DNA of 20,656 nucleotides, taken from assembly GCA_021789095.1 (NCBI GenBank), contig JAJYJX010000017.1, positions 1 to 20,656 on the forward strand, written 5' to 3'. Each line of letters starts with the position of its first letter. Within the stretch, counting starts at the first letter, position 1. This stretch comes from a bacterium (GTDB lineage: Bacteria > JAMCPX01). Both the position numbers and the translations under genes were made by a program. Below are positions 5,492 to 20,656 of the stretch, piece after piece. Below the pieces are notes generated by a model, which saw only the letters and a list, made by a program, of their open reading frames with translations, was not told where the DNA came from and made no database searches.

Positions 5492-5529
5492 TAACAAAGC
5501 CGGTTCAATTACACTCTTCCAGTTATACA

Positions 5530-5591
5530 CAAAAAATGCAATAAGGAAGTTTGCTCATTCGCTCAAACTTCCTTCTTATCAAATGCATTGT
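5530..5591 (-). repeat. R1-B, palindromic repeat and likely terminator of the methyltransferase gene
   Basis: This copy has nested inverted repeats: outer AAAAAATGCA (5531-5540) and TGCATTG (5584-5590), inner arms 5540-5553 and 5564-5577 (13 of 14 paired) around a 10-base loop. Read on the minus strand it starts about 6 bases after the methyltransferase stop and its strong stem is followed by ATTGCATTTTTT, so it could act as an intrinsic terminator. It matches R1-D in opposite orientation over nearly its whole length. Confidence 0.75.
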
Positions 5592-5596
5592 TTGAG

Positions 5597-6709
5597 TTAC
5601 AGGATGCTGTTCCTGTAGGTAAATCCAGCGGGTACGGGCAGATGCAGATCGCCTTTGTACTGAAGCAGGACCTTGAATATATCACCCATTGCATCGGGCA
5701 TAATCAGGAACTTCGATGCCGACGTAAGCCTGTAATAATCAACCGGATCGTTTACGGTATTCTTGATCCGTGAAAGCAGGTCATCGTACCCAAGGGAAAA
5801 TATGAAATCCCTCTGTCTTACATAACCGACCGTGCTTAACAAGAGTTCTCTGCCCCATTTCCCAAGACTGGTGAAATCAACATGGCTTGTTATGTCTTTT
5901 TCTCCTGCGAGTTCATAGGGGTTTTTGTCCACAGTATGGCTGTGATAACAGGCAAGTGTCCCATTGCCCCTGTACGGGGAATAATACTCTTCACTGCTAT
6001 AGCCGTAATCTATTGTAAGGATGTATCCATGGTTTAACGCGGCTGTCATCGCTTCAAGGAGGTGCCGCGCCCTGAGGTTGATCTCGGTACGCATGCCCTC
6101 GGAGAGTTTTACGCCGATTGAATCAAGATGGCCCAGAAGTTCGTCCGGCGCAGGCATACGTACCTCTTCGAAACGGCCGTCTTTAAGGGTGACATAAACT
6201 TCGTAAAGCCTGTGATCCATAACAACGATATGAACGGGCAGTGCGTCGAAAAGTTCGTTTGATATTATACAGCCTGTAAACGGCTTAATGTCTGAGAGGG
6301 CCTCATGTATTCCGATCTTATCAGGACGTTCAACGGTCAGGCCTTTTTGCTTTTCCACAATAGCGTACCTCGCGGCGTCATAAACATCTTTATGCCATCT
6401 GGACATTGATTCCATGATATCGTTTGCCATCCTGCCAGTGCCGCCACCGACCTCTACAATATAAAAAGGATCCGGCTGTCCCAGCAGATCGAAAAACTGA
6501 GCAATCTGCCTTGCGAGGATCATGCTCATTACCGACGATGCATATGGCGCCGTGTAATAATCGCCGTGAACGCCGATCCTGTGCCTGCCTGATGTATAAT
6601 AGCCCAATGACGGGTAATACAGACAGAACTCCATAAACTGCTCAAACGTGATCGGCCCCGTCTGGTTTATCGTATCTTTTATAATCTGCTCCAGCCTGTT
6701 AACCGCCAT
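5597..6709 (-). CDS. SAM-dependent methyltransferase of the MidA/NDUFAF7 family
   Basis: 370 aa, class I methyltransferase of the COG1565 (DUF185) family. Mitochondrial members methylate an arginine of a complex I subunit; bacterial roles are poorly known. Visible landmarks are the N-terminal ITFEQFMEFCLYYPSLGYYT, the glycine-rich SAM loop VEVGGGTGRMANDIM (about 88-102), SNELFDALPVH, LTIDYGYSSEEYY and CYHSHTVDKNPYELAGEKDIT, all in family order. Length is typical. AGGA at 6720-6717, seven bases upstream, supports the ATG at 6709. It lies 140 bases downstream of the octahaem cytochrome gene on the same strand, but the palindrome in between makes co-transcription uncertain. No complex I genes are present to suggest the target. 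Confidence 0.88.
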   Translation of the reverse strand: MAVNRLEQIIKDTINQTGPITFEQFMEFCLYYPSLGYYTSGRHRIGVHGDYYTAPYASSVMSMILARQIAQFFDLLGQPDPFYIVEVGGGTGRMANDIMESMSRWHKDVYDAARYAIVEKQKGLTVERPDKIGIHEALSDIKPFTGCIISNELFDALPVHIVVMDHRLYEVYVTLKDGRFEEVRMPAPDELLGHLDSIGVKLSEGMRTEINLRARHLLEAMTAALNHGYILTIDYGYSSEEYYSPYRGNGTLACYHSHTVDKNPYELAGEKDITSHVDFTSLGKWGRELLLSTVGYVRQRDFIFSLGYDDLLSRIKNTVNDPVDYYRLTSASKFLIMPDAMGDIFKVLLQYKGDLHLPVPAGFTYRNSIL

Positions 6710-6849: not shown

Positions 6850-8154
6850 TTATTTCTTTTTTTCCATCTCTTCCATCTGTTGCATGAGTTCGATCTTGTT
6901 GAGCTCGAGTTCATAAAAACCATGCCACAGTTCGTAGTCAGGACCCTGCATAAACGCACCGAATCTTGCCCTTCTGCCCTCATGGTGCCAGTATTCGAAG
7001 AATTTAAACTGTACAGGCGTTGAGAACGGTGTTTTTGCCCATTTGCCTTCAGACACTAGCTTTTGTTTCATATCAAACACTGGTTTGTAATATCTGTTTT
7101 CGTAAACTTCTAAAGTTGTATCTGCCTGTTTGAAATAGTTTTGTGTCCAGATCGTTGAATGGCAGTGGTAACATACCTCCTGCATTTTTTCCTGTTTTGC
7201 CTGCCAGTCAGTATAATGATAGGTAAGTGGTGCCTGAAGCGTCCATGACAGATTGGAGCTCAAGTTATGGGTTGTCTTCATATCGGGCAGTCCTGCATCC
7301 ATATGGCATGTAACACATACAGGTGCTACACCTGTTTTTAATATGTTCCATTTACCCGCGGGTGCCTTCCAGTCCCAGTTTGCACCTCTTGTAGCATAGA
7401 TATTGCCATGCTTTGATTCCATATAAATTTCATACTGAGGATGATCAGGACCGATATGACAGTTACCGCATACCTCGGGTTTTCTCGCCTCTTCAATAGA
7501 AAATCTGTGCCGTGTATGGCATGTTGTACAACTGCCGAAGCTTCCGTCGGGGTTTATCCTGCCTATTCCCTGATTGGGCCAGGTTTCAGGCGATGGTGTG
7601 CCGTCTTTATTTATCTTCACAACTGTGCCGTGACATGCCTGACATCCCCTTATCGTTATTTTATCACCCATTGTTGCAAAAAGCGTGTTTTCTCTGGTGA
7701 CTTCAAGTCCCGGCATGCCTGCTATAAACTGTCTTGCAACTGCATGCCTGCTTTCTTCAAATTCTTTTGTTTCCGACTGATGACATGCGGAGCAGTCTTT
7801 CGGAGATACAACCACGTGGATTATAAAGCCGTTGTGTTCAAATGCACCCGGTGCCCCTTTATCATTGCTCTTGTGGCATTCATAACATCCGATGTTTTCC
7901 TTCGCATGCCAGCTCTGCTGCCAGTCAGAAACGATGCCCGGTGTTATGCCTGTATGGCACTGTATGCACTCCTTGCTCTGGTCGCTCAATGCTTTGAACG
8001 TCCTTTGCTTTGCAGGAGGATACAAGCTGAGCTTTACAGGGTCGATCTTCTGATCTGCTCTTGCGCGGGATACCGTGGAGAAACTTATCACAAAAATAAG
8101 TCCCGTTAGAAAATACAGGGTTTTAACCGTCGGGCTAAATATAATTTTTTTCAT
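6850..8154 (-). CDS. Octahaem c-type cytochrome of the hydroxylamine oxidoreductase (HAO) family
   Basis: 434 aa, periplasmic. A signal peptide spans residues 1-33 (hydrophobic TLYFLTGLIFVISF, cleavage near ARA-D). Eight CXXCH haem sites are present, with first cysteines at 63, 90, 121, 171, 209, 229, 280 and 328. GRINPDGSFGSCTTCHTRH, CGNCHIGPDHPQYEIYMESKHG and the C-terminal WHHEGRRARFGAFMQGPDY are HAO-family hallmarks, and Asp237-His238 fit the HAO active-site pair. Known relatives oxidise hydroxylamine or hydrazine, or reduce nitrite or hydroxylamine. Which applies depends on whether a cross-linking Tyr follows haem 8; Y351, Y355 and Y356 are candidates that need alignment. There is no C-terminal membrane anchor. 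AAGGAG (8166-8161) supports the start, and a promoter lies upstream. The gene is divergent from the receptor-TonB pair. The nitrogen substrate is an inference. Confidence 0.9.
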   Translation of the reverse strand: MKKIIFSPTVKTLYFLTGLIFVISFSTVSRARADQKIDPVKLSLYPPAKQRTFKALSDQSKECIQCHTGITPGIVSDWQQSWHAKENIGCYECHKSNDKGAPGAFEHNGFIIHVVVSPKDCSACHQSETKEFEESRHAVARQFIAGMPGLEVTRENTLFATMGDKITIRGCQACHGTVVKINKDGTPSPETWPNQGIGRINPDGSFGSCTTCHTRHRFSIEEARKPEVCGNCHIGPDHPQYEIYMESKHGNIYATRGANWDWKAPAGKWNILKTGVAPVCVTCHMDAGLPDMKTTHNLSSNLSWTLQAPLTYHYTDWQAKQEKMQEVCYHCHSTIWTQNYFKQADTTLEVYENRYYKPVFDMKQKLVSEGKWAKTPFSTPVQFKFFEYWHHEGRRARFGAFMQGPDYELWHGFYELELNKIELMQQMEEMEKKK

Positions 8155-12880: not shown

Positions 12881-14008
12881 TCACTCGAAAATCACGAACC
12901 TTTTTGCCTTTTCAAGTCTTTTACCTTTTATACCGAGGTTTTCAAAGCCGTTTATTCTCCCGGATCCCCTCGCCGTCAGGATTATTTCTACTGTTTTTGG
13001 ACCCAGTCCAGGAACCCTTAACAATGCCTCTTTTTCAGCCCTGTTTATCCTGACAGGATAGAATTCAGGATGCCTTTCCGCCCATATCTCCTTCGGGTCT
13101 TTATCAAGCCTTAAATTGCCGGAATTGTCCAGGAGGATGTCATTATTGTTGAAACCATACCTGCGGATAAGAAAATCTACCTGATACAGGCGGTGTTCAC
13201 GCACAAAGATTTCTTCAGCATCCTGTGCAGGCTTCCGTTCCCCGGGGATCTCCTGAACTCCGAGACCTTTTTGATAGGCGGAAAAATACACTCTCTGGAA
13301 GTCCAGCCGGTTATATAAACCGAACATGTAATCTATAATTTCAGAGTCCGTTTCATCAGACGCTCCGACAATAAACTGGGTTGTGCACTTTACCCTTGAA
13401 AACCTGCTTCCTGAGGAAGTGAGTCTGCTCATAAGTTTTATAGGACGTATGATGTCGTTCATATAGTCTTTCTTTTCAGAAAGGATTTCAAAGTGTTTCT
13501 TGCCCGGTGTCTCTATATTCAGGGATACTGCACTTGCAAGAGAGACGGAGTCTTCAACAGCGGCATCCGAAGCGCCGGGTATGATCTTCAGGTGGATGTA
13601 TCCTTTAAAATGATGTTTGTACCTGAGGATACGGGCAACGGCATTGATCCTGTCCATTGTATAATCCGGGTTGCTGATGATACCGGAACTCAAAAACAAA
13701 CCGAATACCTTTTTCTGTCTTGCGTACTCCATGAATATATCGGCTGCCTCTTCAGAGCGTAAAGTACAACGCCTGACATTTGTATCAGATCTCAGGGGGC
13801 AGTATTTGCAGTCGTTAGAGCAGGCATTGGAAAGGAGTGTTTTCAAAAGTATGGAGTAACCGCCGTTGGGAAGTGTTACAGGATAAAGCCATTTTCCCTC
13901 AATGCCCCTTTTCCTGTGCTCGTCCTTGCCGGTAGCACATGCACACGCAAGATCGTGCCTGGCATCTTCTGAGAGGATCTTAAGTTTTTCAATAGTGTCC
14001 ATAGGCAT
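12881..14008 (-). CDS. Radical SAM protein of the putative DNA modification/repair family (UDG-linked type)
   Basis: 375 aa. The radical SAM CX3CX2C motif is C63, C67 and C70 in LSNACSNDCKYCPLR, followed by barrel-like segments (FGLFLSSGIISNPDYTMDRI, GYIHLKIIPGASDAAVED, CTTQFIVGASDETDSEII). A C-terminal helix-hairpin-helix (about 325-350, ALLRVPGLGPKTVEIIL) suggests DNA binding. This matches the family named putative DNA modification/repair radical SAM protein, usually encoded beside an unusual uracil-DNA-glycosylase-like protein. That partner is not in the window, and the reaction is unknown. The start has no strong Shine-Dalgarno sequence; an ATG two codons later is equally possible. The gene begins 30 bases after tRNA-Pro on the same strand, so the two may share a transcript. 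Confidence 0.87.
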   Translation of the reverse strand: MPMDTIEKLKILSEDARHDLACACATGKDEHRKRGIEGKWLYPVTLPNGGYSILLKTLLSNACSNDCKYCPLRSDTNVRRCTLRSEEAADIFMEYARQKKVFGLFLSSGIISNPDYTMDRINAVARILRYKHHFKGYIHLKIIPGASDAAVEDSVSLASAVSLNIETPGKKHFEILSEKKDYMNDIIRPIKLMSRLTSSGSRFSRVKCTTQFIVGASDETDSEIIDYMFGLYNRLDFQRVYFSAYQKGLGVQEIPGERKPAQDAEEIFVREHRLYQVDFLIRRYGFNNNDILLDNSGNLRLDKDPKEIWAERHPEFYPVRINRAEKEALLRVPGLGPKTVEIILTARGSGRINGFENLGIKGKRLEKAKRFVIFE

Positions 14009-14038
14009 TATCCAAACAATATCAGCAAAGTCCTATAA

Positions 14039-14115
14039 TGGTCGGGGCGGGCGGATTTGGACCGCCGACCTTTCGGTCCCGAACCGAACGCTCTACCAGG
14101 CTGAGCCACGCCCCG
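14039..14115 (-). tRNA. tRNA-Pro(CGG)
   Basis: On the minus strand the acceptor stem CGGGGCG (14115-14109) pairs with CGCCCCG (14049-14043). The anticodon loop TTCGGGA gives CGG (14081-14079). The T arm carries GTCCAAATC in place of the usual GTTCAAATC. A discriminator A and an encoded CCA (14041-14039) follow. It reads proline codon CCG. The first 23 bases overlap the doubtful small ORF. Confidence 0.93.
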
Positions 14116-14377
14116 TATTACCGCTTTTAACCATGTGCTGGACCGCTTCCAGAGGTATGTTCACCCCGTTAGAAAGCCCCGCAGTAACGCATATCTGTTG
14201 AAGCATAAGATATACTTCGGCACGCAGGCACATCCTTTCTAACGGGGTGAACAAATTATTAATACATGAGTATGTGTCATCGGTCAACTCAAATAATATG
14301 CCGGGACGATTGGCAACTTTCCGGTGGTACCATTGAAAAGTATTATCAAACATTACTATTGACAAATGCTCTTTCAT
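14093..14377 (-). CDS. Doubtful small ORF that runs into tRNA-Pro
   Basis: 94 aa of unknown function, beginning MKEHLSIVMFDNTFQWYHRK. In its favour is an excellent ribosome-binding site: AGGGGTGAT (14391-14383) five bases before the ATG. Against it, about a third of the frame is repeat element R2-a, and the stop codon (TAG) lies in the D arm of tRNA-Pro, so the last residues (GRGSAW) are tRNA sequence. The element is 94 bp, not a multiple of three, so an insertion would have shifted the frame. It may be a real leader peptide, a gene broken by the element, or chance. Confidence 0.3.
   Translation of the reverse strand: MKEHLSIVMFDNTFQWYHRKVANRPGILFELTDDTYSCINNLFTPLERMCLRAEVYLMLQQICVTAGLSNGVNIPLEAVQHMVKSGNTGRGSAW
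14159..14252. repeat. R2-a, 94-bp element with 18-bp terminal inverted repeats
   Basis: GTTCACCCCGTTAGAAAG (14159-14176) is perfectly repeated, inverted, at 14235-14252. The core CCCCGTTAGAAA is shared with R2-b and R2-c; the interior is not. A smaller ATATCT/AGATAT pair lies inside. No convincing target duplication is seen. It sits upstream of tRNA-Pro, within the doubtful small ORF. Confidence 0.75.
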
Positions 14378-14387
14378 GGCATATCAC
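14359..14387 (+). promoter_or_regulatory. Probable promoter of the small lipoprotein gene
   Basis: A consensus TTGACA (14359-14364), a 17-base spacer and TATCAC (14382-14387). Transcription from near 14394 gives a leader of about 30 bases with a perfect AAGGAGGT. The -10 overlaps the ribosome-binding site of the opposing doubtful ORF. Confidence 0.45.
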
Positions 14388-14423
14388 CCCTGTAAATATA
14401 CTACTTTAAGGAGGTAAAGATAA

Positions 14424-14609
14424 ATGAAGAAGTTGATGGTATTAGCGATTGTTTTGGTTTTTGCTGCAGGTATGACCAGCTGCCACAAAGAAGAGGCAAC
14501 AGAACAGGCTGCTCCGGCTGTATCAACCCCGACTTCAACAACAGCTGCACCGGCTTCCCCGACAACTGCTGCGCCGGCTTCACCAACGACAGCTGCACCG
14601 GCAAAGTAA
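14424..14609 (+). CDS. Small lipoprotein with Thr/Ala/Pro tandem repeats
   Basis: 61 aa. A lysine-hydrophobic signal sequence (MKKLMVLAIVLVFAAGMTSC) ends at Cys20, the probable lipidation site, although Met at -3 makes the lipobox MTSC slightly unusual. After a short charged HKEEATEQ segment the mature protein is low-complexity: 8-residue units TTAAPASP repeated twice plus a partial third, ending in Lys. Such a chain would be a flexible tether or surface-exposed peptide; no function is known. AAGGAGGT (14408-14415) eight bases before the ATG and a strong terminator 22 bases after the stop indicate a well-expressed single-gene unit. Confidence 0.8.
   Translation: MKKLMVLAIVLVFAAGMTSCHKEEATEQAAPAVSTPTSTTAAPASPTTAAPASPTTAAPAK
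14538..14606 (+). repeat. 24-base in-frame tandem repeat
   Basis: Two full 24-base units (14538-14561, 14562-14585) and a 21-base partial unit encode TTAAPASP. The units differ mostly at third codon positions, so the repeat is not brand new, yet its length could still vary between strains. Confidence 0.75.
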
Positions 14610-14631
14610 AAAAAACTGTTGCATGAAGAGG

Positions 14632-14658
14632 GAGGGAGCTTCTGCTCCCTCTTTTTTT
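14632..14658 (+). terminator. Intrinsic terminator of the small lipoprotein gene
   Basis: GAGGGAGC (14632-14639) and GCTCCCTC (14644-14651) form a perfect 8-bp stem with a TTCT loop, followed by seven T's (14652-14658). Element R2-b begins two bases later. Confidence 0.92.
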
Positions 14659-14659
14659 A

Positions 14660-14762
14660 CCCCGTTAGAAATCCTTTCAATTTCTTTGTCTGCAGAAATG
14701 ATGATTTTTACCAATAACAAATGAGCTTGGAATTCGAACCTGCAGTAGGATTTCTAACGGGG
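14660..14762. repeat. R2-b, 103-bp element with 16-bp terminal inverted repeats
   Basis: CCCCGTTAGAAATCCT (14660-14675) is perfectly inverted at 14747-14762. The interior is AT-rich, has no ORF, and differs from R2-a and R2-c. It fills the space between the lipoprotein terminator and the meaB stop codon (14764-14766), ending one base short of it. Confidence 0.8.
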
Positions 14763-14763
14763 G

Positions 14764-15735
14764 TTATTTCAATATCTTCTCAAGAAAGCTCTTGTCCTGC
14801 ATGAGCTGTTTCAGTATTTTGTAAGGGCTGATGGACGGGTTCTTTAATTTTGATATGTAATCGCCCATTGTTGATCCGTTGATCGCATCTTCTATGTTCG
14901 TACTCAGCTGTTCGGACGCAATCTGTTTTAATTCATGAAGCCTTTTGCGCAAAAAAAGCTCTGTATCTGTATGGCTGTTTAAGAAATCAATATGTCTGAG
15001 GATGGTCCGGAACAGTTCATCCGTACCTGTACCGTCGAGTCCGTTTGTGAGTACTACGGGTATCTGCCACATGTCCTGTACAGCATTGGAAGTCTCGATC
15101 AGGAACTTCAGTGAGTTTAACATCTGTTTTGAGCCTTCTCGGTCGGCCTTGTTAACGACGAAGATGTTTGCAATCTCCATAAGCCCAGCCTTCATAGTCT
15201 GTACAAAATCACCCGATTCAGGCACCAGTACCACGGCCACGGTATCCGCTATATTCATGATATCGAGCTCTGTCTGTCCCACACCGACGGTTTCCAGGAT
15301 GATAAATTTATATCCTGCTGCCTGCATAAGGTATGAAGCGTCCCTTGTGATCCTTGATATGCCGCCTTTTGCACCCCTTGAGCCGAGGCTTCTTATAAAC
15401 ACCTGCTGGTCAAGAAAGTGGTGCTGCATCCTGATCCTGTCACCGAGTATTGCTCCGCCTGTGAAAGGACTCGAAGGGTCTGTCGCCAGTACACCGACCA
15501 TTTCATTCGAATTCCTCATGTGCTTTATAAGCCAGTCTATAAGCGAGCTTTTTCCTGCGCCTGGAGGTCCTGTGAAACCTATCCTGTATGATTTACCCTT
15601 GCCGTTGATCAGGTCTTCGATAGAGGATATGTCCAGTTCGCCTTCCTCAATAAGTGTTATTGACCTTGCAAGGGCAGAGACATCGCCCTGTTTTAGTTTA
15701 TCTATAAGTTTTTTTGTCCGGTCGTCTATTCCCAT
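14764..15735 (-). CDS. meaB: MeaB/ArgK-family GTPase, chaperone of adenosylcobalamin-dependent mutases
   Basis: 323 aa, cytosolic G3E-type GTPase. Known MeaB proteins bind methylmalonyl-CoA mutase or its relatives and control cofactor loading and protection. The P-loop GPPGAGKS is at 56-63. The family signatures VLATDPSSPFTGGAILGDRIRM, ETVGVGQTE and guanine-specifying NKAD are all present, as is the C-terminal helical extension. Length is normal. It overlaps the SAM hydrolase gene by 10 bases on the same strand, so the two are translationally coupled. No mutase subunit or B12 gene is in the window, so which mutase it serves is open. Element R2-b begins one base beyond its stop codon. Confidence 0.92.
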   Translation of the reverse strand: MGIDDRTKKLIDKLKQGDVSALARSITLIEEGELDISSIEDLINGKGKSYRIGFTGPPGAGKSSLIDWLIKHMRNSNEMVGVLATDPSSPFTGGAILGDRIRMQHHFLDQQVFIRSLGSRGAKGGISRITRDASYLMQAAGYKFIILETVGVGQTELDIMNIADTVAVVLVPESGDFVQTMKAGLMEIANIFVVNKADREGSKQMLNSLKFLIETSNAVQDMWQIPVVLTNGLDGTGTDELFRTILRHIDFLNSHTDTELFLRKRLHELKQIASEQLSTNIEDAINGSTMGDYISKLKNPSISPYKILKQLMQDKSFLEKILK

Positions 15736-16499
15736 GTTATTTTTACCTTATCCCCGATGTTTACACCCAGCTTCCCGTGGGCGCTCCCGGAGCTTACCGC
15801 AATTTCAAGCAGGTTTAAACTGTTTATAAGCGCACACGGTTTATTCCAGGCGCACTGCTCGTACATGTCCTTTATGCCTTTTATCTTAAACCTTTTTACC
15901 ACTATATCCGGTTTTTTGTCAGCAGGAATCATATCGGAATGTACGTTTGTTATAATGTTGCCGAAATGGTCTATATGTATGACCTCGCCCGTGATGCAGC
16001 TCGCACCGGCACGGGGCTTATGTATGTCAAGCACGACCGGTCTTTTTATCTGTGCTCCCAGCAGGGAACTGTCCCATCCCAGGGACATTCTTGCTGCTGC
16101 AGGTGCAAATACGTCCCTGCCGTGGAAGGTCGCGGATGGCTCACTTGATAGACCCTGCCTTGTATTGATCTCATAGCACTGTGCAGGATTGTCCATCAAA
16201 ACGTAACTGAACACGCCGTTGTCAGGGCCTACGAATACATGGTCTTTTGTTTTTACAACTATACCCAGCCTGGGACCGCCGACCCCCGGGTCAACAACCG
16301 CAATATGCACTGTGCCTTTTGGAAAGTATCTGTAATAGCCGTTAAGGACAAATGCTGCGAAAGGAATATTATGGGGTGGTATGTCATGGGTTGCATCTAT
16401 TATGCTGACCGAAGGATTTATACCGAGGATCACGCCTTTCATGCTTGCAGCATAACTGTCGCTGGTACCGAAATCCGTGCAAAGTGTTATGATGGACAT
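15726..16499 (-). CDS. SAM hydroxide adenosyltransferase (SAM hydrolase, DUF62 family)
   Basis: 257 aa. This family cleaves S-adenosylmethionine with water-derived hydroxide to adenosine and methionine, and is related to fluorinase and chlorinase. Motifs in order: ITLCTDFGTSDSYAASMKG at the N-terminus, DATHDIPPHNI, VVDPGVGG, VGPDNGVFS, FHGRDVFAPAAA, IDHFGNIITN and, near the end, NSLNLLEIAVSSG. Length is normal. GGAG (16507-16504) precedes the ATG at 16499. Its stop overlaps the meaB start, forming a two-gene coupled unit; the link between SAM hydrolysis and a mutase chaperone is unexplained. It lies 70 bases downstream of the DedA gene on the same strand, with repeat R1-C between. Confidence 0.9.
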   Translation of the reverse strand: MSIITLCTDFGTSDSYAASMKGVILGINPSVSIIDATHDIPPHNIPFAAFVLNGYYRYFPKGTVHIAVVDPGVGGPRLGIVVKTKDHVFVGPDNGVFSYVLMDNPAQCYEINTRQGLSSEPSATFHGRDVFAPAAARMSLGWDSSLLGAQIKRPVVLDIHKPRAGASCITGEVIHIDHFGNIITNVHSDMIPADKKPDIVVKRFKIKGIKDMYEQCAWNKPCALINSLNLLEIAVSSGSAHGKLGVNIGDKVKITWE

Positions 16500-16515
16500 A
16501 ATGCTCCGATCTTAA

Positions 16516-16566
16516 CCTGAAAAATGTAATAAGAAAGTTTGTTCATTATTTTCAAATGCGTTCTTT
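16516..16566 (-). repeat. R1-C, internally deleted copy of the palindromic repeat
   Basis: Both ends match R1-D (on this strand TGAAAAATGTAATAAGAAAG and TTTTCAAATGCG), but one hairpin arm of about 13 bases is missing between TTCATT and ATTTTCAAATGC. It lies just after the DedA stop codon. With one arm gone it can no longer fold as in R1-B. Confidence 0.65.
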
Positions 16567-16569
16567 TGC

Positions 16570-17193
16570 TCAACGCTCATTCGCTATGTGCTTCAGGTGC
16601 CTTCTCAAATAAATTATAAAGAGTATAATACCCGTTATAAGTATAAGGTAATCGAATCTGTGGAAATAAGGCCCCAGTGTGTCCCACTGCTCGCCGAGCT
16701 TGAATCCTATCCATGCGATAAAAAGGCTCCAGAGGAATGAGCCGGCGAGCGTATAGAAAATAAACTGCACGAAGTTCATCCTTGCAATGCCAGCAGGCAG
16801 GGATATGAATGTTCTGATGATCGGAAGAAGCCTGCCCGTAAAAACAGTGATGCTGCCGTGCCTGCTGAACCATCGGTCCGCAATATCAAGATCGTGCCTG
16901 CTGATGAGTATATATTTGCCGTATTTCTCTATGAGCGGCCTTCCGCCGTATGCACCGGCCGCATAAGCTATTACAGAGCCGATTACACATCCAACAGCTC
17001 CGGCGATCGCAACATACAGCAGCTGGAACTTCTTGATAAATACAAGGTATCCTGCGAACGGCAGTATGATCTCCGAGGGCAGGGGGATGCAGGCGCTCTC
17101 TATTGCCATTAAGATCACGACACCCCCGTAGCCAAGGAGGTTTATGGTTGCTATGATAAATCCAGCTACAATCCCGAATAAGCGCGATACCAT
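16570..17193 (-). CDS. DedA-family inner-membrane protein
   Basis: About 207 aa from the ATG at 17193 (211 if the in-frame GTG at 17205 is used). DedA/VTT-domain proteins are linked to undecaprenyl-phosphate or phospholipid translocation and membrane-potential homeostasis. Visible are the N-terminal hydrophobic segment, MAIESACIPLPSEIILPFAGYLV with the conserved acidic and proline residues, VGCVIGSVIAYAAGAYGG, and FTGRLLPIIRTFISLPAGIARM with the conserved arginines. A final membrane span precedes a basic tail. The ATG at 17193 follows the stop of the preceding lipoprotein gene by one base (TAATATG), and the GTG would overlap it; neither has a Shine-Dalgarno sequence, so coupling is likely. 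Confidence 0.88.
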   Translation of the reverse strand: MVSRLFGIVAGFIIATINLLGYGGVVILMAIESACIPLPSEIILPFAGYLVFIKKFQLLYVAIAGAVGCVIGSVIAYAAGAYGGRPLIEKYGKYILISRHDLDIADRWFSRHGSITVFTGRLLPIIRTFISLPAGIARMNFVQFIFYTLAGSFLWSLFIAWIGFKLGEQWDTLGPYFHRFDYLILITGIILFIIYLRRHLKHIANER

Positions 17194-17194
17194 A

Positions 17195-18574
17195 TTATTT
17201 GGCACAGTGTGCGGGCTGTTTGCCCTGCAGCAGTCCCTGTTTCCCTATTATCGGCGACAGCTCGAATATATTTACGGATTGAACCGGGTTGGCAGGGTCG
17301 ATGAGTTCCGTGTTGTTGATGAGCAGGGCAAACCCTGCTTTCCCTATGCCCAGTTCGGATGCAGCGGAATTGTTTTGTGCTATTCTTTCTTTTACCGTCG
17401 TTTCTTTGAACGGCCCTGAATGGTAGGCGCTGTTGAATTCCTTCAATGAATTGCTCCTGGAGAGTTTGTCCAGCACCTTCATGAGGTTATTCGTGGATTT
17501 CTCTCTTCCTATTATAGCCGCAGTTTTCAGCGTTTCATTGCCTATAGTGCTGCCGATCACGTTTATTACAGGAGTGTACCGGAGCTGTTTATACGCCAGA
17601 AGCAGTTTCAGTACGGATATGCACGCATTCAGTGCAGGCTTGCTTGAGACGTCCAGGAACATTACCATTTTATTGTCTTCAGCAGGCCTGTTGGTAAGGT
17701 GCCTGTACCCGAGATCGTCCATGCTGTCCATATACGCCCCGTTTACGTCCCTTAATCTTGCCTTGATTGTATTGTAATTCGTGGTCATTGTTACATTTTT
17801 GCTGAAGAGCAGTGCGGGTATTTCTGAAATCCCGAATTTCTTTGAAAGTTCTTTCCCTTGATTGCTGTTTATGTCCGTCATGTTAATGGTTGATTTGTAA
17901 AAAAAGTCAGAGAGGTTTTCCTTTATAATCTCGGGGCGGTACACATTCTCCCATCCCCCTGTAAGGATTGTCACGTTCACATCGACCGGTGGTTTTAGTG
18001 TCTTGCAATAAGCAAGCCCGGGTATAGCAGCGCATACAGCCCGTAGTATATGCTCCGGCTGCATTGGATCGCTGTACTTCGAGTCATTTATGTAGAGGGT
18101 GGGGCTTGCAAGTATGTGGAGTTTTTCTGTTTCATTGTAATCGGCATCGAGTATTTTTTCAGCTTTCCCGGATTTTACGAATGCATCTATTTCAGCTTTA
18201 TCTATATTGTTGTCCTTAAGACACCTGTCCCTGTCCATGGTACTGTTGTAGCACAGCAGGTAGGTGTAGAACCTGCCGCTGTGAAGCTCCTGTATGGCTA
18301 TCTGGTGCAGGTCTTCATCAAGCTCCGGAGGGCCGTGAAGGCTCGTAAAATTATTATCTTCCTTCCCTACTATGTAACGGATATGGAGTGCGAGTCCGTT
18401 GTCAAAATGAGCCATTACGCCGATTATGGTGTCCTCGGCCCTTATGCCGAACGGGCAGTGGCTCATTACATACAGGTTTAGTACCGGTTTCGTATCATTC
18501 TTCGTTGTGCATGATATTGCTGTTATGCATATCACCGATAAAACTATTATCAAATTTCTCGGGATTCTGAACAT
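17195..18574 (-). CDS. DsbA/thioredoxin-like lipoprotein with extended C-terminal region
   Basis: 459 aa from the ATG at 18574, chosen because GGAGA (18585-18581) precedes it by 6 bases and a lipoprotein signal follows (MFRIPRNLIIVLSVICITAISC, lipid Cys22). A DsbA-like domain (about 31-190) begins LNLYVMSHCPFGIRAED. It carries only one active-site-like Cys (C40 in CPFG) in place of CXXC, then further cysteines and the cis-Pro-like ASPTLYIN. A second, weaker thioredoxin-like part (about 200-310) has KKFGISEIPALLFSK. The rest is unassigned. A periplasmic thiol or redox-chaperone role is inferred only. Upstream the frame stays open to a second start at 18832, so a 545-aa fusion is possible. It is followed immediately by the DedA gene. 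Confidence 0.72.
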   Translation of the reverse strand: MFRIPRNLIIVLSVICITAISCTTKNDTKPVLNLYVMSHCPFGIRAEDTIIGVMAHFDNGLALHIRYIVGKEDNNFTSLHGPPELDEDLHQIAIQELHSGRFYTYLLCYNSTMDRDRCLKDNNIDKAEIDAFVKSGKAEKILDADYNETEKLHILASPTLYINDSKYSDPMQPEHILRAVCAAIPGLAYCKTLKPPVDVNVTILTGGWENVYRPEIIKENLSDFFYKSTINMTDINSNQGKELSKKFGISEIPALLFSKNVTMTTNYNTIKARLRDVNGAYMDSMDDLGYRHLTNRPAEDNKMVMFLDVSSKPALNACISVLKLLLAYKQLRYTPVINVIGSTIGNETLKTAAIIGREKSTNNLMKVLDKLSRSNSLKEFNSAYHSGPFKETTVKERIAQNNSAASELGIGKAGFALLINNTELIDPANPVQSVNIFELSPIIGKQGLLQGKQPAHCAK

Positions 18575-18575
18575 T

Positions 18576-18832
18576 TCAACTCTCCATTGCGTGGTTTTTT
18601 TTTCTCTCTTGTATATTGCTACCTCGAAATTAAGTACATCTACCACATAGTGGTAGTCATCTATATAAACCTCGTACATCTGCGGCATTTCCATGTGGTA
18701 TTCTTCGCCCTTGCTGAATGCATTTTCTTCTACAAGATAATCCAGGAGTTTTCGTATCTCTGCAAAGCTTATGTCCTGATCGGTTATGATATTGAATATT
18801 AAATTTTTATGCGTAATCGGATATATATCCAT
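18576..18832 (-). CDS. Small unknown ORF, in frame with the downstream lipoprotein through an A9 run
   Basis: The ATG at 18832 has AAGGA (18845-18841) eight bases upstream. The product begins MDIYPITHKNLIFNIITDQD and is acidic and aromatic-rich (MYEVYIDDYHYVVDVLNFEVAIY), with no signal peptide and no family I recognise. As sequenced, the frame continues without a stop into the lipoprotein. With one more A in the nine-A run at 18603-18595 the product would be 85 aa and end at TGA (18578-18576), one base before the lipoprotein ATG, a typical operon junction. Either the junction slips, the genes are fused, or the run length is wrong. A TTGACA (18871-18866) lies upstream. Confidence 0.5.
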
Positions 18833-18881
18833 TATGATTTTCCTTGTAGAAGAGCATTTTAACGCTGTCAAGACAAAAGCA

Positions 18882-18908
18882 TTGCAAATATATTTTTTAT
18901 GGTATAAT
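18882..18908 (+). promoter_or_regulatory. Probable promoter of tRNA-Glu
   Basis: A consensus TATAAT (18903-18908) preceded by TGG, making an extended -10, with TTGCAA (18882-18887) 15 bases upstream. The tRNA begins 23 bases after the -10. Confidence 0.5.
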
Positions 18909-18931
18909 AACACACACAACAGCAACTGTGC

Positions 18932-19004
18932 GGTCCTATCGTCTAGAGGCCTAGGACGTTGCCCTCTCAAGGCAAAAACGAGAGTTCAAATCTCTCTAGG
19001 ACCA
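18932..19004 (+). tRNA. tRNA-Glu(CTC)
   Basis: Acceptor GGTCCTA (18932-18938) pairs with TAGGACC (18997-19003). The anticodon stem TTGCC/GGCAA closes the loop CTCTCAA with anticodon CTC (18966-18968). T arm GAGAG-TTCAAAT-CTCTC. Discriminator A at 19004; CCA is not encoded. It reads GAG. R2-c starts 6 bases later. Confidence 0.93.
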
Positions 19005-19010
19005 TTTTAT

Positions 19011-19109
19011 CCCGTTAGAAATCCTATCGATTTTCTTATCTACATAAAGGATAAATTCTCGCACAAACAGATAATCATGGAATCAAACCCATGATAGGAT
19101 TTCTAACGG
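19011..19109. repeat. R2-c, 99-bp element with 17-bp terminal inverted repeats
   Basis: CCGTTAGAAATCCTATC (19012-19028) is perfectly inverted at 19093-19109. A small internal hairpin, ATCATGG/CCATGAT, lies near the right end. The element fills the gap between tRNA-Glu and the opposing esterase gene, whose stop codon starts at 19112. Confidence 0.8.
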
Positions 19110-19111
19110 AA

Positions 19112-20260
19112 TTACTGTAATAGATCCTGCCAAGCTGTGGTATCTGTCATGATGTCCGCTGTCCATTGGGAAAAGTATGCACCGTTGATCTGCGTTGAAT
19201 AGTATGTAGGAAGTTCAAGGATCGTGTGAGAGCTTCCGTTTATGAAGTAGCGCTTGAAATGGCCGGGATGAGCGTTGTGGATCTCGTTTGTCACACTGAG
19301 CAGCAGGTTTTTGAAATCCGTGCCGTTCATCTGCAGGAACACTCCGCCGATAATGGCATCGGTATAATAAGAGAAGAAGCCGAAGTTTTCGTTCGGGTCC
19401 CTGTTCAGCGCCCAGTCCGCAAGGTATGTCATCTGCTGATCGCACTTAGGGCAGTCGGGCGGTATGATCTCCTTGATATTCCATACCTGCAGTATTGTCT
19501 GGAACAGCTGGGCTTGCTTTGGATTGAACAGCCCGACCCCGGAGTCATTTATGACCTGAAGTGTTGTGAAAGGGTATTGTGTCCGTGTTACAAAATAACC
19601 CATAAATGTTCCGTAACCTCCTGCACTGCTTCCGGATACGAGTATCTTGTCCGGGTTTATGAAGTTTTGTTTCATCAGGGTAATGGCTGCGGACAGGTTG
19701 GCAAGGCCGTGGAAGTAGGTCGTTGCGGTTGTGCCTGTAGCTGTATCTGTAAAGGTTACATCATTATCACCCGACCATACACTGCCGTCGCAGTAGGATG
19801 CGTACACGATGCTATAATCAGAGAACGGGTTACCGGCATTTGTTGTATCGAGAAAGCCTCCGGGGTGGGCAGGATTGGCATAATTTTTTGCAAGGGACGC
19901 ATTATAACAGGTATTATAGTCCCAGCATGCGCCGCCGCCTTCGAGGTACAGCATGACCTTTTTCGGATCACCCCTGTGGATGGAGACCATGTACTGGTTG
20001 CCGTTAAAGCATCTCGCGGGTGAGGCCGGATCATAATAATATACTTCCCATGTGCTGTTGTTTATTATTGTCTGTGTAGTTCCCGGGGTGGGCTCTAAAC
20101 CTATGTATTTATCAATGCCCATTGAGTACAGCGTGTCAATATAGCTTGAATAGACGGTGTCTGTTTTTGTACTGGAACCGCAGCCGGACAACAAGACCAG
20201 CAAAGGGACGAAGAGAACGATCAACGGGTACGGGACAGCAACAACATTGGACTTTTTCAT
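19112..20260 (-). CDS. Pectin acetylesterase/Notum-family lipoprotein esterase
   Basis: 382 aa. The start at 20260 is set by AAGGAGG (20272-20266) five bases upstream and by the lipoprotein signal it exposes (MKKSNVVAVPYPLIVLFVPL then LVLLSGC, lipid Cys27). The frame is open upstream to 20365, but that would bury the signal peptide. The catalytic domain has the family's LYLEGGGACWDYNTC oxyanion region, VYASYCDGSVWSGD, the nucleophile motif VSGSSAGGYGTF (Ser near 212), an Asp candidate in INDSGVG and a His candidate in NGSSHTI. Cysteine pairs such as CPKC could form disulfides. The family deacetylates pectin in plants and removes palmitoleate from Wnt in animals; bacterial substrates are mostly unknown, so I call it only a carboxylesterase. 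Confidence 0.83.
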   Translation of the reverse strand: MKKSNVVAVPYPLIVLFVPLLVLLSGCGSSTKTDTVYSSYIDTLYSMGIDKYIGLEPTPGTTQTIINNSTWEVYYYDPASPARCFNGNQYMVSIHRGDPKKVMLYLEGGGACWDYNTCYNASLAKNYANPAHPGGFLDTTNAGNPFSDYSIVYASYCDGSVWSGDNDVTFTDTATGTTATTYFHGLANLSAAITLMKQNFINPDKILVSGSSAGGYGTFMGYFVTRTQYPFTTLQVINDSGVGLFNPKQAQLFQTILQVWNIKEIIPPDCPKCDQQMTYLADWALNRDPNENFGFFSYYTDAIIGGVFLQMNGTDFKNLLLSVTNEIHNAHPGHFKRYFINGSSHTILELPTYYSTQINGAYFSQWTADIMTDTTAWQDLLQ

Positions 20261-20281
20261 GACAGCCTCCTTAGCAATTTC

Positions 20282-20309
20282 TATTAACATACAATGTTGT
20301 GATTGCCAA
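20282..20309 (-). promoter_or_regulatory. Probable promoter of the esterase gene
   Basis: On the minus strand, TTGGCA (20309-20304), a 16-base spacer, then TTAATA (20287-20282). The leader would be about 15 bases with AAGGAGG. Confidence 0.45.
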
Positions 20310-20319
20310 ATGGATTTAC

Positions 20320-20388
20320 CCCAAAAAATGCATTTGAAAATAAGGAAGTTTGAGCGAATGAGCAAATTCCCTTATTGCATTTTTCGGG
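20320..20388 (+). repeat. R1-D, best-preserved copy of the AT-rich palindromic repeat
   Basis: Ends CCCAAAAAATGCA and TGCATTTTTCGGG are inverted repeats. Inner arms AATAAGGAAGTTTG and CAAATTCCCTTATT pair at 12 of 14 positions around AGCGAATGAG. Together with R1-B it defines the family. It lies between the esterase promoter and tRNA-Arg. Confidence 0.78.
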
Positions 20389-20408
20389 TTTATATGAAGA
20401 TTATTACG

Positions 20409-20437
20409 TTGAAATTCCCGGGCTAATGGCGTAATAT
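20409..20437 (+). promoter_or_regulatory. Probable promoter of tRNA-Arg
   Basis: TTGAAA (20409-20414), a 17-base spacer and TAATAT (20432-20437), 15 bases before the tRNA. Confidence 0.5.
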
Positions 20438-20452
20438 AAAAACAAACCGTTT

Positions 20453-20525
20453 GCGCCCGTAGCTCAGTGGATAGAGCGTCGGACTTCGAATCCGCAGGTC
20501 GTGGGTTCAAATCCCACCGGGCGCT
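20453..20525 (+). tRNA. tRNA-Arg(TCG)
   Basis: Acceptor GCGCCCG (20453-20459) pairs with CGGGCGC (20518-20524). The anticodon loop CTTCGAA gives TCG (20486-20488), reading CGA and related codons. T arm GTGGG-TTCAAAT-CCCAC. The outermost anticodon-stem pair is mismatched. Discriminator T; CCA is not encoded. Confidence 0.92.
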
Positions 20526-20656
20526 TTTGTTTTTCAAGCACTTAGACGTTTCATTGTTTCCGCCAGCACTGCCTATGGCTGTTTTTGACCTTTAGCACAC
20601 AAATCAATTCTCTCCGATATTGACAATACCGTTATGAGGTTATAAACAAGGCAAAG
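20526..20656. other. Right-edge intergenic DNA
   Basis: No gene is visible. TTGACA (20621-20626) with TATAAA 15 bases downstream may be the promoter of a rightward gene beyond the window. I see no copy of the tRNA 3' end, so there is no evidence for an integration site here. Confidence 0.3.

Follow-up and report, generated by a model that had tools for sequence, protein, structure and literature searches.

What are the short elements, constant at their inverted ends and seemingly unrelated inside, that recur within 5 kb of a 20,656 nt stretch of bacterial DNA, and do they move? The stretch, which we refer to as the window, comprises positions 1 to 20,656 of contig JAJYJX010000017.1 (assembly GCA_021789095.1, lineage JAMCPX01). 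The family is real and mobile, and very probably consists of non-autonomous palindromic mobile elements of the miniature inverted-repeat transposable element (MITE) type, present in many copies per genome. It is notable for ends that cross phyla and for in-frame insertion in essential genes. The original prediction, made from the letters of the window alone, had named three elements with shared inverted ends; all three are present, and their limits have been refined as listed here, together with their flanks and two further features of the window on which the argument draws:

14160-14163, unstranded: left flank of element 1, TTCA; the right flank (14248-14251) is TGAA, the two being mirrored and forming no direct repeat
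14164-14247, unstranded: element 1, 84 bp, from CCCCGTTAGAAAG to CTTTCTAACGGGG, with a single hairpin fold (z -5.7)
14656-14659, unstranded: flank of element 2, TTTA (TAAA on the meaB strand), one copy of the 4 bp target duplication
14660-14762, unstranded: element 2, 103 bp, of a subfamily shared with element 3; not at the orthologous meaB locus of relatives G002 and G005
14763-14766, unstranded: other flank of element 2, GTTA (TAAC on the meaB strand, one change versus TAAA), containing the meaB stop codon TTA (14764-14766)
19010-19111, unstranded: element 3, 102 bp, with arms 95% complementary
8102-8112, + strand: unpaired end CCCGTTAGAAA, with no partner found within normal element length
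28-164, unstranded: empty copy (without element) of a carrier repeat also found in relative G001 with and without a 94 bp element

Ends, interiors and distribution

The terminal inverted repeats are 13 bp long (YCCCGTTAGAAAN), the total element length is 26-140 bp, and the interior spans from a few bases to ~110 bp, rarely ~280 bp. In a set of 201 non-redundant elements, complementarity between the two ends is 89-100% over positions 1-13 and falls toward background at position 14. Positions 1, 11, 12 and 13 are variable yet complementary within an element (at position 13, 89% versus 40% when shuffled), and inside the subfamily of a single genome, G085 (Ca. Nealsonbacteria), both GAGAT/ATCTC and GAGGT/ACCTC arm pairs are present; part of this arm covariation may stem from subfamily-specific ends. 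Folded as single strands, the elements form one long hairpin (z -4.2 to -6.2). In the window, the arms of element 1 (14158-14176 and 14235-14253) are 19 bp each and 100% complementary, and element 3 extends from 5 bp past a tRNA gene (18932-19004) to the stop codon of a convergent gene (19112-20365). Exact CCGTTAGAAA occurs seven times in the window, six of these making up the three inverted pairs and one (8103-8112) standing unpaired.

With the end pattern read backwards as control, the genome to which the window belongs (G000; 2.15 Mb, 203 contigs) holds 110 occurrences of CCGTTAGAAA versus 9, a 12-fold excess, and 101 of CCCGTTAGAAA versus 1, so that the ends are far above chance and the many genomic copies anticipated from the window do exist. 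The majority of these ends lie in inverted pairs, for many unpaired ends a degenerate partner lies at the distance usual for a pair, and the elements are usually 101 bp long, with miniature forms of ~32 bp. Relatives of the same family carry 1 to 78 ends per genome, and in genomes of other families the ends are not above control, except for a single pair in one genome. Among named genomes, the inverted pair occurs in at least 115 stretches, and the hosts among the matches listed are Patescibacteria (many lineages), Omnitrophota, Deltaproteobacteria/Syntrophaceae, Planctomycetota, KSB1, Stahlbacteria, Nitrospirae and Kazan bacteria. All 49 named host genomes tested carry 3-196 ends each (control 0-4), most other bacteria have no ends above control, and the distribution is patchy over many phyla. 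In viral sequences the pair is present in only three stretches; single ends in viral contigs were rejected as family members, being chance matches inside phage genes without a flank repeat.

The interiors of the three elements had been described as unrelated, which holds in appearance only. Elements 2 and 3 share 75% identity over 79 nt and both group with a further copy, from contig C140, whilst the copies in other genomes are homologous along their whole length, with interiors unrelated between genomes. The homologous subfamily and its size differ from genome to genome: 101 bp in G000, 94 bp in G001, 110-112 bp in G089 (Yanofskybacteria), 103 bp in G101 (Doudnabacteria), 59 bp in G085 and 61 bp in G064. 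The window interiors thus look unrelated because the copies are old, diverged and from different subfamilies. Rfam covariance models run against positions 13900-20656 returned only tRNAs and sub-threshold chance matches, and no family for the elements.

Target duplication and empty sites

Identical 4-mers flank 70 of 132 elements from other genomes, versus 12.1 with shuffled flanks, and in the same elements flank repeats of other lengths gave no comparable signal. The duplicated 4-mers mostly follow TNNA (TTTA/TAAA, TTCA/TGAA, TCCA, TTGA, TCTA and others). In G085 the repeat is exact in 11 of 12 homologous copies, where 2.25 were expected, and in 23 of 25 over all copies; because eight 4-mer kinds occur among the homologous copies of this one genome, genome-specific end sequences do not explain the flank repeats.

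Two empty sites were found. In G001, a ~230 bp dispersed carrier repeat occurs both with and without the 94 bp element, such that GCATATAAACATACAG becomes GCATATAAA, the 94 bp element and TAAACATACAG. The other is the ortholog of element 2: G002 and G005 read ...GGA-TAA-AAAAA(G)GAGGGAG, the meaB stop followed by a terminator, with the stop TAA running directly into AAAAAGAGGGAG, whilst in the window the two are split by element 2 (...AAATAAC, the element, then TAAAAAAAGAGGGAG). The comparison of filled and empty sites indicates that element 2 entered TAAA at the meaB stop and that the left copy later changed by one base; G004 and G003 are also without element 2 at meaB. The original prediction had offered a non-autonomous transposable element as one explanation and asked for empty sites in orthologous spacers and for target duplications; both are there, and with the copy number they bear that explanation out. 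It had also set against itself a lack of further copies, or ends conserved at the same loci as part of an RNA family, whereas there are many further copies, an ortholog without element 2 and no Rfam match.

Mechanistically, a transposase acting in trans would recognise the 13 bp ends, the target would be cut with a 4 nt stagger, the ends joined and the 4 bp duplicated by repair, a DDE-like scheme read from the product and not from the enzyme.

The carrier belongs to a second dispersed repeat family, with window copies at 28-164, 5524-5599 and 20317-20392 (those at 5524 and 20317 are 87% complementary) and ends AACCCGAAAAATGCGTTTGAAAATAAGGAAGTTTGAGC...GCATTTTTCGGGTT, which reaches its full ~230 bp in G001, where it carries the 94 bp element. 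At two places in G001 (L345:13386-13586 and L338:8167) another repeat is nested in the 94 bp element, in a 201 bp form, which makes three repeat families with insertions of one in another. In G088 (L551, L552, L554, L558, L559) there are composite forms whose outer 4-mers match and which have additional internal arms, as if element had inserted into element. G001 and G008 carry a related but different, degenerate insert (CCCCGTTACCCGCG...) at the meaB stop codon that element 2 occupies in the window (L591, L592), which suggests either that the site is used repeatedly or that the insert represents a sister subfamily.

Copies inside genes and at their boundaries

Thirty copies lie inside long reading frames, and in 29 of them the length of the element plus 4 bp is divisible by three and the insertion leaves the frame open, the added peptides being NPVR...SNG or TPLE...LTG. 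For the 59 bp element of G085 this makes 63 nt, or 21 codons in frame, and the element is found in the genes for CTP synthase, NAD-dependent DNA ligase, trigger factor, alanyl-tRNA synthetase, UvrA and topoisomerase I; 29 bp forms lie inside DnaX and NrdG, and about ten copies in this genome are inside unrelated coding genes. The housekeeping proteins are full-length, family models span the inserts, and in alignment to solved CTP synthase, ligase and topoisomerase the insert falls in a gap. Similar in-gene copies occur in other genomes, in SdhA and a RarA-like ATPase. In all eight 59 bp in-gene copies the purine-rich strand is the sense strand and codes a hydrophilic peptide, a bias which may reflect either adaptation on the part of the element or no more than the removal of harmful insertions by selection.

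The other surviving copies are intergenic, and many of them abut precisely on a stop or start codon, which the duplication rebuilds. Such codon reuse was counted 13 times in the own genome, versus 3.9 expected, and 26 times at named loci, versus 9.4, where the expectation comes from how these 4-mers are placed in that intergenic space, with genes called as simple longest open reading frames. In G089 all 17 copies supply, with their last base, the A of the ATG that follows, and 14 of the 17 begin 0-1 nt past a stop codon. This enrichment, the G089 arrangement above all, would be natural if the elements were domesticated RNA or DNA hairpins (leaders, insulators or terminators) which selection maintains at gene boundaries and whose mobility is past or minor, and arm covariation and orientation bias fit that account as well. 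We nevertheless regard it as unlikely, as the interiors are unrelated between genomes and match no Rfam family, the G085 copies sit inside unrelated coding genes, and the element is not present at an orthologous site; boundary placement is also expected from purifying selection on random insertions. For mobile elements, both boundary and in-frame placement would mainly be what such selection leaves. That the family is made of chance inverted repeats or is an assembly artefact has a negligible probability and is refuted by the counts: only the metagenomic origin of the genomes speaks for it, set against the excess of ends over control, identical ends in many independently assembled genomes, and the empty sites.

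REPINs have inverted conserved ends, a variable spacer and a hairpin, and are proposed to move in trans (PMC3116915). On a REPIN/RAYT-type explanation the inverted pair would be moved as a single-stranded DNA hairpin by a Y1 (HUH) tyrosine transposase in trans, and much of the anatomy is alike: an inverted doublet with a variable spacer, a length of ~70-110 bp (~100 bp in total), a single-stranded DNA hairpin and compensatory arm changes. Insertion beside a tetranucleotide with biased orientation is also as for REPINs, and Y1 genes are present in 17 of 24 element-bearing genomes tested, with three in the own genome. However, real 4 bp duplications of many kinds in one genome are not expected from Y1 transposition, Y1_Tnp was not detected in the other seven of the 24 (G089, G101, G098, G107, G105, G094 and G061), several of them element-rich, and none of 33 Y1 loci (30 fetched and three own) was seen to be bounded by inward-facing ends of the family. 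The ends contain GTTAG and not the GTAG/CGTC tag, and copies lie inside genes. Two defining REPIN features are therefore lacking, namely a RAYT gene flanked by the repeats of the family and insertion without target duplication, and we consider this explanation highly improbable. The own genome does hold a RAYT-like Y1 gene of 221 aa on contig C43 (L036:171-836), with different flanking repeats, its own inverted GGTCGCTGTCCCTATTTT, which constitutes a separate REP-like system.

The mover and the relation to known systems

Several observations weigh against the MITE-type reading. A copy that carries a gene between these ends, with flanks that match, the full-length element with a transposase for which the original prediction had suggested a search, was not found in the fetched sequence and coordinate lists of the own and other genomes, which are mostly drafts. 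In five element-rich genomes (G101, G098, G107, G094 and G061), mostly metagenome drafts, none of Y1, DDE_Tnp_1 and rve was detected. In G089 (L482-L494) the 4 bp repeat is exact in only 3 of 17 copies, and the flanks differ systematically, the right being TGAA (part of ATGAA) and the left a stop codon, which simple duplication does not explain. Finally, in G089, G101, G064 and G000 the interior shows a preferred orientation with respect to the asymmetric target, which a plain symmetric transposase would not give; selection on orientation relative to genes could produce such a bias.

Candidate parents were rejected in turn. Among long inward-facing pairs that might have been full-length elements, the L298 pair bounds ordinary genes and the flanks of L330, L541 and L542 are unmatched. 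IS1380 (piggyBac-like) has short ends starting with CC and a 4-5 bp duplication, a likeness which made it a candidate; its transposase genes were detected in 7 of 36 genomes searched and not in the other 29, and the one copy located with likely ends has CCTGAATTTTGC and a 5 bp duplication, so it was discarded as mostly undetected in the hosts and different in ends and duplication length. DDE_Tnp_1 was not detected in G085, G089, G101, G098, G070, G088 and G064, among others, and rve was not detected in G101, G098, G107, G094 and G061 (rve loci being scored for presence only); Y1/RAYT, DDE_Tnp_1 and rve were set aside as parents because they are undetected in several element-rich genomes, and the Y1 and DDE loci checked are not bounded by the ends. 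Integron attC sites begin with a YAAC box and end with GTT; GTTAG/CTAAC made them a candidate, which was rejected since the polarity is reversed relative to attC and a 4 bp duplication is present.

Bacterial MITEs (ERIC, Correia, Nezha and others) are likewise short and non-autonomous, with terminal inverted repeats, a target duplication and a mostly intergenic location, and the family here is short with inverted ends, has the duplication, and has its insertion shown by an empty site. Known MITE families are usually restricted to one lineage and often linked with a parent insertion sequence (IS), whereas in this family the ends are shared between phyla, every genome has an interior of its own, and a parent IS was looked for without success. 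Rickettsia palindromic elements (RPE), described from Rickettsia, are short palindromic repeats of about 150 bp in ten families, many of them in frame in unrelated protein genes, to which they add peptide (PMC10969869). The likeness to RPE is one of behaviour and lies in the in-frame insertion in unrelated coding genes, here as 21-codon inserts in essential genes; unlike in RPE, a 13 bp end is common to many phyla, and the 4 bp duplication and empty sites are shown. A full-text literature search for the end sequence or the peptide found no description of the family.

We put forward only tentatively, as a possibility that is somewhat doubtful, a joint reading in which one 13 bp end and a single undescribed mover make up a selfish element spread across many phyla and shaped to be harmless: the ends are open in two of three frames, element plus duplication is often a multiple of three, the terminal A/G rebuilds ATG/GTG, and the purine-rich strand codes a hydrophilic linker.

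In-frame mobile palindromes in essential proteins are known mainly from Rickettsia, and the same outcome is seen here in unrelated uncultured phyla, with a mechanism of insertion that can be read from the 4 bp duplication and the empty sites. The strict shared ends, in genomes without the tested common transposase families, point to an undescribed mover. The family accounts for the recurrent NPVR...SNG and TPLE...LTG motifs within proteins of the host genomes, and is a caution for gene annotation in candidate phyla. If the joint reading of a harmless element is true, essential proteins outside Rickettsia would have in this family a general source of new peptide segments.

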